NCBI GenBank assembly: GCA_016125215.1 | Contig: WGMF01000002.1 | Coordinates: 62,001 to 126,000, forward strand | Direction: 5' to 3' | Length of the DNA: 64,000 nucleotides | From: Phycisphaera sp. | GTDB taxonomy: Bacteria; Planctomycetota; Phycisphaerae; Phycisphaerales; Phycisphaeraceae | Part shown: positions 15,201 through 23,009 of the stretch, one piece after another | How the letters are laid out: every line of letters begins with the position of its first letter | Numbering within the stretch: the first letter of the stretch is position 1 | Notes under the pieces: generated by a model | The model's input: only the letters and a program-made list of their open reading frames with translations | Database searches by the model: none | What the model was told of the DNA's origin: nothing | Program-made: the position numbers and the translations under genes

Positions 15201-15408
15201 TTCACCGCAGAGATCGCAGAGGACGCGGAGAAGAGGGGGAAAAATCTATCCGCAGATGACGCAGATTCCAAAGGCAGATAATCAGGATGGCACCCAACCT
15301 GTTGGTGCCTGCGCGTCGGGTATGTTCTGAATCTTGTCCCCATCTGCGTCATCTGCGGATCACTCTTCCCCTGCCTCTCTCCGCGTCCTCTGCGTCCTCT
15401 GCGGTGAA
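15201..15408. repeat. Nested inverted repeat (three palindromes in one)
   Basis: Outer arms are 15201-15239 and about 15371-15408 (TTCACCGCAGAG... against ...CTCTGCGGTGAA, 9-10 bp period). Inner arms 15248-15266 and 15342-15360 are exact 19-bp reverse complements built on ATCCGCAGATGACGCAGAT. A small hairpin at 15289-15309 (GGCACC / GGTGCC) sits at the centre. It fills the gap between the CapD-like gene and rph; no open frame or promoter stands out. Confidence 0.9.
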
Positions 15409-17904: not shown

Positions 17905-18133
17905 GCCGCAAATGAACGCGAATAAACGCAAATGGAGGCAGAATTTCCGAGCAATACACGCCAAGCGGGATCAATTAACTCAAGGGTATGACATGTACGG
18001 TCACGTATGAGCATAGAACATGTTGCATGTCTGACCCATTCAATATCGATGCCGTTCTTTTAACATTAGAGATCATTCCCACTCAACCGATCCGTGTCTT
18101 TCTTCGCGTTCATTCGCGTTCATTCGCGGCTAA
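17905..18133. repeat. Inverted repeat of CGCGAATGAA units between the two lpt permeases
   Basis: The left arm, 17905-17937, contains CCGCAAATGAACGCGAATAA. The right arm, 18099-18133, contains the reverse complement type CGCGTTCATTCGCGTTCATT. The period is 10 bp and arm identity is high but imperfect. The right arm ends 3 bp before the ATG of the downstream permease, so it overlaps where the ribosome site should be. The 160 bp between the arms hold no recognisable gene. Confidence 0.85.
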
Positions 18134-19346: not shown

Positions 19347-22300
19347 ATGCCCAAACGCACCGACATCAAGACCATCCTCATCATCGGCTCTGGCCCCATC
19401 GTCATCGGGCAGGGCTGCGAGTTCGACTACTCCGGCACGCAGGCGTGCAAAGCCCTGCGCGAGGAGGGGTATCAGGTTGTGCTCGTCAACTCCAACCCGG
19501 CCACGATCATGACCGACCCGGAGTTCGCCGACCGCACCTACATCGAACCCATCACGCCCGAAGCCGTCACCAAGATCATCGAAAAAGAAAAAGACGGCCC
19601 GTTCCACATCGACGCACTGCTCCCCACGCTCGGCGGGCAGACCGCGCTCAACTGCGCCTGCAAGCTCTTCGACGATGGCGTGCTCACAAGGTTGGGCGTC
19701 GAGATGATCGGCGCCAACCGCGAGGTGATCTACCGCGCCGAGGATAGAAAACTTTTCAAGGAGATCGTCGAGTCGATCGGGCTGAAGATGCCCAAGGCGG
19801 GGATTGCCAACTCGATGGACGATGCGTGGCGAGTGGTTGAGACCACGGGCCTGCCGGCGATCATCCGGCCGGCTTTCACGCTTGGCGGCACGGGCGGCGG
19901 TATTGCCTACAACCGCGAGGAGTTCGAGGACATCGTCCGCCGCGGCCTCGACGCCTCGATGACCCACCAGGTCCTCATCGACCAGTCCGTACTCGGGTGG
20001 AAAGAGTACGAACTCGAGGTCATGCGCGACCACGACGACAACGTCGTCATCATCTGCACCATCGAAAACTTCGACCCGATGGGCGTCCACACCGGCGATT
20101 CGATCACCGTCGCCCCCGCCCAGACGCTCACGGACAAGGAATACCAGCAGATGCGTGACGCGGCGCTGGCGATCATCCGTGAGATCGGCGTCGAGACCGG
20201 AGGGTGCAACATCCAGTTCGCAATCAACCCCTCACCCGGAAACGACGCGGGGGAGATGGTCGTGGTCGAGATGAACCCGCGCGTCTCGCGCAGCTCGGCC
20301 CTGGCGTCGAAGGCCACAGGGTTCGCCATTGCCAAAATCGCCGCCAAGCTCGCCGTCGGGTACACCTTGTGGGAACTGCCCAACGACATCACCGGCAAGA
20401 CCGTCGCGTGCTTCGAGCCGACCATCGATTACGTCGTGACCAAGATCCCGCGCTGGACTTTCGAGAAGTTCCCCGACGCCGACGAGACGCTGACCACGCA
20501 GATGAAGTCCGTCGGCGAAGCGATGAGCATCGGGCGAACTTTCAAGGAGAGCCTGCAAAAAGGTATCCGGTCGATGGAGGTCAAGCGCTTCGGGCTCGGG
20601 CTGGACGCGAATGACAAGTGGCTCAACGCCCAGCGCGACAGCGAAAAGGCCGGCGACTTCCCGATCGACCCGTCCAAGCTCCGGCGAAAGCTTACCGTGC
20701 CCTCGCAAGGCCGGTTGTATTACATCCGCTACGCCTTCAAGATGGGCTGGACGATTGATGAGGTTTACGAGGCCACGAAGATCGACAAGTGGTTCCTCGA
20801 CCAGATCAAGCAGCTCGTAGACTTTGAGAATGACCTGACACAATGTAAGAATCTGGAAGCGGTCGATCGGGACCTGATGTTCCGGGCCAAGCAGTTGGGC
20901 TACTCCGACCCACAGCTTGCGAACCTGTTCCTGGGCAAGATTTCGACACAGACGATCCTGAAGGTGAGGGCCTACCGCAAGTCGCTGGGTGTGCAGCCGG
21001 TCTACAAGCTCGTGGACACCTGCGCCGCGGAGTTCGAGGCGGCGACGCCGTATTACTACTCGACGTACGAGACGCCAATTTACAAATACAGCCCGACCGA
21101 TTCAGTCGGGTCTTCCGGTGGGCGCGGCGATGCGTCACCCGACCGCGACGGTCGGGCAGTGTACGACGACGAAATCCGCGTCAGTGATCGGAAAAAGATC
21201 ATGATCCTCGGCGGCGGCCCCAACCGCATCGGGCAGGGGATCGAGTTTGATTATTGCTGCGTACAGGCGGCTTTTGCGGCCGACGAACTGGGGTTTGAAT
21301 CGGTCATGGTCAACTCGAACCCGGAGACGGTGAGCACGGACTACGACACGAGCGACCTGCTCTTTTTCGAGCCGCTCACATTGGAAGACGTGCTGAACAT
21401 CTACGACCGTCTTGACGCGGGCAAGGGGCTGGTCCACGGTGTGATCGTGCAGTTCGGCGGTCAGACGCCGTTGAACCTGGCCAAGGGGCTGCGTGAGGCG
21501 GGCGTGCCGATCATCGGGACGAGTGTCGACTCGATTGAACTGGCCGAGGACCGCGAGCGTTTTGCGACCCTGCTCAAAAAGCTCGACATCAAGCAACCGA
21601 CCAACGGCATCGCATACAACGTCGACCAGGCGATCGAGATTGCGAGGCACATCGGCTATCCCGTGCTCGTGCGTCCGAGCTTTGTGCTCGGCGGGCGTGC
21701 GATGGAGACCGTCTTTGATGACGAACAGTTGCGTCACTACATGGCCATTGCGATCGGGGCCAGCGACATCGAGGGGCAACCGATTTTGATTGACGACTTC
21801 CTCTCGGAGGCCATCGAGTGCGATGTGGACGTGATCGCGGACTTTGAGGAGAGTGGCCAAGTGACCAAGTGGCCAAGTGGTCAAGTGAAAGACCATGGGT
21901 CCGATTCCACACACTCGGCCACTCGGCCACTCGGCCACACGGCGACTTCTTTAGTCTGCGGTGTCATGGAACACATCGAGGAAGCGGGCATCCATTCGGG
22001 CGACTCGGCGTGTGCGATCCCGCCGTATTCATTGCCCGCCGGCGTGGTCGAAGACCTGCGTGACAAGTCGCGTCGCATCGCCGAGGCGCTGGGTGTGCGC
22101 GGCTTGATGAACGTGCAGTACGCCATTAAGAGAAGTGGCCAAGTGGCCGAGTGGCCAAGTGGTCAAGTGAAAGACAATGACTCTGGTTCCGCTCGCTCGG
22201 CCACACGGCCACTCGACCACTCGGCCACTTCTTCTTACGAGACCTATGTGCTCGAAGTGAACCCCCGTGCCTCGCGCACCGTGCCGTTCGTAAGCAAGGC

Positions 22301-23009
22301 GACCGGCTTGCCGTGGGCTCGGATCGCGGCCAAGGTGATGGCGGGCAAGAGCCTCGTGGAACTGGGTGTGACCGAAGAGGTCGAGCCGGCGCACACGTCC
22401 GTCAAGGAGTCCGTGTTCCCGTTCTCGAAGTTCCCGGGGGTGGACGTGATCCTCGGTCCCGAGATGCGGTCGACGGGCGAGGTGATGGGGACGGACATGG
22501 ACTTTGCGATCGCCTTTGCCAAGAGCCAGATGGCGGCGGGGACGGTCCTGCCCACGGGCGGCAAGGTTTTCCTGAGTGTGCGGGACAGCGACAAGCCACA
22601 GATCGTCAGCGTGGCGCGGCGGCTCTGCGAGATGGGCTTCGAGGTCCACTCGACCGGCGGGACGCACGAGTTCCTCGCGTCACGGGGTGTGAAGACTCAG
22701 AGAGTGCTCAAGATCAGCGAGGGCAGGCCCAACGCCATCGACCTGATCAAGAACGGCGAACTGTCGTTGGTCATCAACACGCCGACGCGCAAGGGCATCC
22801 GCAGTGACGAGGGTCGGCTGCGCTCGACGGCTGTGCGTTTTGCGGTGCCGATGATCACGACGACGACGGCGGCGTCCGCGGCGGTGACGTCGATCGCGGC
22901 TTTACAATCCGGCGGGTGGGGCGTGCGTTCACTCCAGGAGTACGCAGTCCAGACCCCCGCGAGGAAGCTGGCACGCAAGCCCGCCGCCGCGCCCAGCGGC
23001 GCGATCTAA
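19347..23009 (+). CDS. carB: Carbamoyl-phosphate synthase large subunit with three in-frame repeat inserts
   Basis: ATP-dependent synthase making carbamoyl phosphate for pyrimidine and arginine synthesis. 1220 aa against about 1073 in E. coli. The N-terminal carboxyphosphate half starts [19 protein letters not shown]; the second half restarts at [19 protein letters not shown]; both contain the ATP-grasp ending [12 protein letters not shown] / [11 protein letters not shown]. The C-terminal MGS-like allosteric domain is present ([17 protein letters not shown]). Much of the extra length comes from three non-conserved tracts read from palindromic repeats: residues about 582-606, 835-868 and 929-963. 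All flanking conserved motifs stay in frame, so the gene looks functional. carA is not in the window. Confidence 0.96.
21090..21164. repeat. Palindromic insert 1 in carB
   Basis: Two hairpins lie side by side: CCCGAC / GTCGGG at 21092-21110 and CCCGACC / GGTCGGG at 21138-21156. They encode about 25 residues (residues 582-606) between the conserved STYE segment and the second synthetase half, where E. coli CarB has a linker of only about ten residues. Confidence 0.8.
21852..21950. repeat. 99-bp palindromic element, copy 1, in frame in carB
   Basis: The left half is 8-bp units (AGTGGCCA, AGTGACCA, AGTGGCCA, AGTGGTCA). The right half is inverted units (ACTCGGCC three times, ACACGGCG). It is translated as 33 residues beginning [14 protein letters not shown], placed between the conserved DVDVIAD and [13 protein letters not shown] segments. 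By eye about 85 of 99 bases match copy 2. Confidence 0.92.
22134..22232. repeat. 99-bp palindromic element, copy 2, in frame in carB
   Basis: Same length, reading frame and architecture as copy 1, 183 bp after its end. With three bases on the left the outer ends form perfect 10-bp terminal inverted repeats (AGAAGTGGCC at 22131-22140, GGCCACTTCT at 22223-22232). It is translated as [14 protein letters not shown] followed by a Ser/Ala-rich tail, between NVQYAIK and [10 protein letters not shown]. Confidence 0.92.

Follow-up and report, generated by a model that had tools for sequence, protein, structure and literature searches.

Multicopy palindromes with arms of tandem octamers lie in frame in carB and other conserved genes of a Phycisphaera genome and its order

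The 64,000-nucleotide stretch of Phycisphaera sp. DNA analyzed here (the window) carries at 19347..23009, on the forward strand, a carB gene for the large subunit of carbamoyl-phosphate synthase (1220 aa; NCBIfam NF003671.0, PRK05294.1, 1591 bits), of which the same genome (G000, completeness 98%) holds no second full-length match. This gene hosts two copies of a 99-bp element, likewise on the forward strand: copy 1 at 21852..21950, encoding CarB residues 836-868, and copy 2 at 22134..22232, encoding residues 930-962. A first-pass annotation had described two related palindromes in one shared frame at these coordinates, which we confirm, and its estimate by eye of about 85 matches over 99 positions equals the computed value of 85/99 (86% over 100 bases in the repeat comparison). 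The arms are inverted and built of 8-bp units, as had been proposed, with AGTGGCCR repeated in tandem in both copies and a middle unrelated to the arms. In copy 1 the left arm (21852..21888) consists of AGTGGYCR units and ends in AAGTGA, and the right arm (21911..21950) consists of tandem 8-bp units in inverted orientation, the limits of both arms being approximate. In copy 2 the left arm (22131..22170) pairs with the right arm (22193..22232, ending in GGCCACTTCT), the two being 83% complementary. The perfect 10-bp terminal inverted repeat reported for this copy was also found (AGAAGTGGCC, at 22131-22140 and 22223-22232); since it starts at 22131, the palindrome begins 3 bp ahead of the 99-bp repeat.

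Both copies are multiples of 3 in length and free of stop codons in the carB frame, again as first described. A phmmer comparison with Escherichia coli CarB placed an alignment gap at each insert (query 834|869 versus E. coli 771|774 for insert 1 and query 930|964 versus 835|835 for insert 2), which bears out the claim that they interrupt segments contiguous in E. coli. That claim needs qualifying for loop 1: family relatives have a longer loop there than E. coli does, and the empty site is thus not just the turn seen in E. coli. Among 30 CarB loci, 29 of them from relatives, loop 2 could be located by pattern in 28 and loop 1 in 20. Loop 2 has 41 residues in G000 versus 7 to 28 in 27 relatives, loop 1 has 36 versus 8 to 35 in 19 relatives, and the inserted residues are absent from CarB of the family relatives examined. 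Of the 30 CarB loci, the one of G000 alone included lptG, and the viral collection contained no relative of it. Because single-sequence structure prediction for CarB residues 612-1055 gave a pLDDT of 34 and was discarded, placement of the inserts in surface loops is based on alignment rather than on a model. The palindromicity of each loop was matched by 0 of 300 mononucleotide shuffles. Across the window we counted 17 unit-pair matches, 15 of them in the two carB copies, against 3.57 expected from shuffles, and none of 100 shuffles of the window attained 17. Predicted RNA folding gave z scores of -5.4 and -8.2 for the carB copies, and hairpins predicted over the six inserts folded ranged from -3.2 to -8.3. 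The only Rfam matches in the window at gathering thresholds were two tRNAs.

Neither the comparison with CarB of family relatives nor a genome search for further copies, the two lines of refutation proposed with the first-pass annotation, overturned its reading. With a DNA pattern of 2.5 units and up to 3 mismatches, AGTGGCCR gave 82 matches in G000 versus 2 for the reversed control. Grouping yielded 23 loci, with paired arms at 13 of them: 5 are genic copies, 8 are further paired palindromes, and the remaining 10 have one arm only. Two of these last (contigs C4 and C42) consist of one 3-mismatch match each and could be chance. Pfam and NCBIfam place the genic copies in carB (two), queG, the gene of an RluD-type pseudouridine synthase, and that of an SNF2-family helicase. 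Arms, middle, orientation, and frame are common to all five, and a peptide profile built from them ranked these copies first at E values of 1e-18 or better, the next locus following at 2.5e-8. The other 18 loci are not demonstrated to be genic; two uncertain cases, L061 and L062, were left out of the genic count. At the former (L061:2959-3116), the open reading frame (ORF) of a proton-antiporter-family (NuoN-like) protein runs into the element and stops within its right arm, so its C terminus may be element encoded; at the latter, an unpaired arm falls within an open frame located upstream of a ThiS domain. The family is multicopy and occurs both between genes and inside conserved genes, where its copies are in frame, stop-free, and in one phase.

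The lengths of the five genic copies (99, 99, 105, 96, and 96 bp) are all multiples of 3, and two to five of the six frames are open in each. Of the six frames, the one used is the least hydrophobic by residue fraction in every case (0.09 to 0.12 versus 0.20 to 0.40) and ranks lowest in mean hydropathy in four of five, the SNF2 copy being the exception. Selection to stay readable, one of the two possibilities raised at first reading, is supported by these lengths and by the use of the least hydrophobic frame. Among the eight paired nongenic copies, four are multiples of 3, and zero to four frames are open. dN/dS was below 1 in 8 of 10 pairs of genic copies over short stretches (13 to 26 codons), while the changed codons between carB copies 1 and 2 include 9 nonsynonymous and 3 synonymous; such comparisons would point weakly at best to selection on the peptide itself. 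Since middles of nongenic copies are mostly unrelated to each other, the five genic copies and a few more are the only cases in which the entire unit has clearly been copied. At ten measured gaps the arm of a nongenic copy lies 7 to 19 bp from the start or stop of a neighboring ORF.

We also observed by eye that some middles of the nongenic copies at L058, L063, L064, L065, L067, L070, L071, and L072 are terminator-like, as if the arms bracketed entire spacers. A tRNA-Arg gene has a single arm 15 bp upstream of it (L060:2992-3118). Many AGTGGCCR arms appear, again by eye, to carry GGTC or GACC in place of GGCC, a pattern expected from deamination of methylated C in GGCC.

Beyond G000, a search with the DNA of copy 1 matched 2 of 41 genomes, its own and, weakly, G019. 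The peptide profile matched 21 of 400 genomes of the order when the best candidates of each genome were scored, and its own genome alone among 392 across the phylum. Elsewhere in the order, similar palindromes are built from the variant units AGGGGCCR, AGTGGCAA-type, and the 7-bp CGGGTAT; AGGGGCCR matched 90 times in G054, 39 in G019, 2 in G106, once in G097, and not at all in G000 or in the reversed control. In-frame hosts across the order include PurL, AtpG, LeuRS, ValRS (three copies), RuvB, MutS, PriA, NadA, DnaK, and TGT. Twenty-six order-wide profile matches were examined in context. Pfam-supported hosts among them are ValRS (three copies in one ORF), UbiD, and a histidine kinase in G219; AcsA, PurL, QueG, AtpG, and a GNAT-like ORF (two copies; family below cut-off) in G054; PurL in G352; and CarB in G336, at a different site. 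A copy in a PMT_2 ORF of G219 sits close to where the frame begins and may lie ahead of the true start, and several matches, such as L197, lie outside genes. Because the profile search favors one frame, we added a sample drawn by DNA pattern and blind to frame, comprising 20 hand-chosen regions (18 of G054 and 2 of G019). Of its 23 clusters, 14 lie within ORFs having a Pfam match: PriA (two), MutS, RuvB, SNF2, NadA, TGT, RarA, LeuRS, PutA (one arm only), DnaK, two GNAT-like ORFs (one below the family cut-off), and MutS of G019. The other nine comprise two without a spanning ORF and seven with a spanning ORF but no Pfam match.

Within a genus, an empty site is seen in PurL, where the insert of G054 (28 residues net) is missing in its congeners G019 and G097. 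PurL of G019 is 89% and 81% identical to that of G054 on either side of the site; four residues beside the insert differ too, so the position of the junction is approximate. The QueG loop could be located by pattern in 10 of 30 loci; it forms a palindrome in G000, G054, and G019 and none in the other seven, including G097 and G106 of the G054 genus. Its arms are of the AGTGGCC type in G054 and of the AGGGGCC type in G019. Three of 20 genomes have a palindrome at CarB loop 1, each with a different sequence: AGTGGCCR in G000, CGGGTAT with a unit period of 7 bp in G006, and a third in G014 (L122). Similarly, the TGT loop holds the 7-bp family in G006 and AGGGGCCR in G054, and the SNF2 loop is occupied in both G000 and G054. 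The occurrence of different unit families at one loop across genera might reflect reuse of a tolerant loop or, alternatively, the exchange of one unit for another. At the limits drawn for the carB copies, whose exact position is uncertain, there is no 2- to 9-bp direct repeat that would indicate a target-site duplication, and none is evident at the PurL site.

We surveyed tandem tracts in 400 kb of G000 and 302 kb of G006 for an inverted partner within 250 bp downstream. For periods 7, 8, 9, and 10, such partners accompany 1/27, 2/13, 9/62, and 2/10 tracts in G000 and 10/58, 2/13, 4/29, and 1/8 in G006, one period-9 case in G000 (L245) resembling an ordinary coding repeat. Partners in the same orientation numbered 5 in total, and tracts with periods of 5, 6, 11, 12, or 13 in the same 400 and 302 kb had no partner, inverted or same-orientation. 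The window itself contains palindromes of other units. Two nested ones lie between ORFs at 15201-15408, the outer (arms 15201-15231 and 15378-15408, a CGCAGAG-type 9-bp unit) starting 7 bp past the upstream ORF stop and the inner having arms at 15237-15266 and 15342-15371 with a CGCAGAT-type unit. Another, with arms of a 10-bp unit of the AACGCGAATA type, fills the inter-ORF gap at 17905-18130, 16 bp from the upstream stop and 6 bp from the downstream ATG. Scanning one genome for each of 84,980 species with an exact 21-base array pattern returned 36 stretches in many phyla, mostly one-way, with both orientations in 4 of the 36. Arrays of the AGTGGCCR-type 8-bp unit (L077-L112, L143), mostly one-way, occur in Streptomyces, Nocardia, Victivallis, Omnitrophota, and Burkholderiales records and in a viral contig; in the 84,980-species scan, similar arrays also occur in named planctomycete records.

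We then compared codon phase in 18 genic copies from three genomes, namely, the 13 paired genic copies of the G054/G019 sample (PutA omitted) and the five of G000. At the right end, the outermost unit has the same codon phase in 17 of these 18 copies, which may not be fully independent events; the exception is DnaK. The left end falls into the three phases 8, 5, and 5 times; the five G000 copies agree in their left phase, and the 13 others are divided among all three. Two to five of the six frames are often open in these copies, so stop codons alone cannot account for the fixed right-end phase.

Taken together, we consider it probable, from sequence comparison, that these are nonautonomous palindromes akin to MITEs or REPINs, with lineage-specific arms of 8-bp units, that are translated as hydrophilic loops and survive in genes only when in frame. 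They would spread as hairpin-forming DNA, as MITEs and REPINs do, with a putative transposase acting in trans. An insertion into a gene would be survivable only in a tolerant surface loop, with a net length divisible by 3 and a reading frame both open and hydrophilic; translation would then add a soluble loop some 33 residues long, and copies would diverge after insertion. Whichever of the three frames is read, an 8-bp unit encodes the same peptide cycle, and a stop-free array is therefore open in any frame, leaving the middle and the total length to decide; this property may be what lets 8-bp arrays enter genes. The number of sites, the lineage-specific unit families, and the empty site within a genus also lend support to the first-pass suggestion of a mobile peptide-coding module. 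The reason for a fixed right-end phase beside a free left end is not obvious, and we count it against this explanation, together with the lack of a direct repeat at the limits drawn, the mostly unrelated middles of nongenic copies, the weak signal of selection on the peptide, and the occurrence of Y1_Tnp genes in carriers and noncarriers alike.

Other explanations account for parts of the data. Variation in the length of loop 1 within the family would suit ordinary lineage-specific extensions of CarB that are palindromic by chance, but the two loops of one gene have 85 of 99 bases in common, none of the 300 shuffles matched the palindromicity of either loop, and the presence of additional copies in unrelated genes refutes this reading, to which we give practically no credence. 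A less easily dismissed alternative is that slippage and template switching at hairpins generate the arrays in place, their likeness reflecting sequence-biased repair. The unrelated middles of most nongenic copies, the differences in unit number between copies, and the tracts of period 7 to 10 with inverted partners, which use many different units in two genomes, are consistent with such an origin. However, the five genic copies are alike in the middle as well as the arms, the unit sequence is genome specific with dozens of matches, and an 8-bp slip would destroy the frame; we regard local origin as improbable.

It is also conceivable that the palindromes are functional regulatory sites in DNA or RNA, such as binding arrays or 3'-end structures, with a selected role for the genic copies. 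The short gaps between ten measured arms and neighboring ORF ends favor this, as do the opposite-strand paired octanucleotide arrays of Geobacter, which the accessible part of the report interprets as global regulator sites (PMC2700814). Against it, the host genes seem to share no evident pathway, the profile matches 21 of 400 genomes of the order (best candidates scored), and units differ among genera, so a regulatory function is in our view an unlikely general explanation. Finally, the inserts might be present in mRNA yet absent from protein, through ribosome bypassing or through RNA or protein processing. Their stable predicted hairpins would fit, and bypassed palindromes are described in mitochondria of the yeast Magnusiomyces in the text available from PMC6649704. 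Yet bypassing requires neither a length divisible by 3 nor an open frame, both of which hold for all five genic copies of G000, and it requires no fixed phase, whereas one right-end phase prevails in 17 of 18 copies. The Rfam result in the window also counts against this reading, and we hold absence of the inserts from the protein to be very unlikely.

A stronger statement could be ventured: that self-spreading tandem-unit palindromes are a standing source of new protein loops in the order, with phase-locked entry into coding sequence and a unit replaceable (AGTGGCC, AGGGGCC, CGGGTAT) at one and the same loop. We offer this tentatively and think it doubtful as a whole. A phase-locked 3' end combined with a free 5' end is an asymmetry unexpected of a symmetric palindrome, and, if true, the phase lock would mean either insertion coupled to transcription or translation or very strong selection on the peptide exit. 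The question of whether mobile DNA creates new protein segments can draw on a gene that carries three copies, on several loops in which different unit families occur, and on many natural insertion experiments (DnaK, RuvB, LeuRS, AtpG, CarB, and others, and PurL with its empty site in congeners).

REP sequences, BIMEs, and REPINs, which are moved by RAYT transposases, are inverted doublets with variable middles that form lineage-specific families and spread between genes. The elements described here share these traits, but the GTAG/CGTC tags are absent from both carB copies, the arms are arrays, and many copies are genic and in frame. Y1_Tnp, considered as a marker of carriers and rejected, is present in 19 of 20 genomes tested, carriers and noncarriers alike. 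With MITEs the elements share terminal inverted repeats, a length of about 100 bp, and the lack of a transposase of their own. Protein-coding palindromes are reportedly, in the words of a 2002 title by Ogata and others, a unique but recurrent feature of Rickettsia. As far as the accessible parts of the reports go, the Rickettsia palindromic elements (RPEs) are palindromic, about 150 bp long, and multicopy, many of them being set in frame within unrelated genes and encoding a conserved peptide (PMC10969869, PMC3733652), and they end in a CGTC tag (PMC3733652). The likeness to RPEs noted at first reading stands for behavior: a palindrome with inverted arms is present at 23 loci, with genic copies of 96 to 105 bp, and five copies are inserted in frame in four unrelated genes with one peptide profile and one preferred frame. 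It does not extend to sequence class, since CGTC is absent from both strands of both carB copies and the arms are lineage-specific arrays of tandem 8-bp (or 7-bp) units, the comparison with RPEs being by description rather than by consensus sequence.

The closest anatomy, likened by description rather than by sequence, is that of arrays in Geobacter metallireducens (PMC2700814) and Xanthomonas (PMC4692102), where the available text describes about four 7- to 8-bp units per array, often in inverted pairs, with paired arrays of Geobacter occurring within genes too (PMC2700814). In those same portions, the arrays are interpreted as regulator sites, regulatory RNA elements, or G-quadruplex repeats and are not described as translated in-frame inserts of housekeeping enzymes. 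PARCEL palindromes resemble ours in coding dyad symmetry that spreads between proteins but, in the part of PMC2996958 available, are tandem domain repeats, mostly of membrane or surface proteins, in contrast to the single inserts in enzyme loops seen here. Mitochondrial palindromes of Nematomorpha likewise lie within functional coding genes but are perfect and mitochondrial and, in the excerpts of PMC6649704, are described as distinct from the Rickettsia elements. A literature search covering a minority of subscription journals gave no report of palindromes being translated in planctomycetes, nor of tandem-unit palindromes serving as in-frame inserts in proteins. In-frame palindromes were previously known mainly from Rickettsia, and, judged by their sequences, those described here appear to form a distinct class, with tandem-octamer arms and lineage-specific units, in frame in core enzymes outside Rickettsia.
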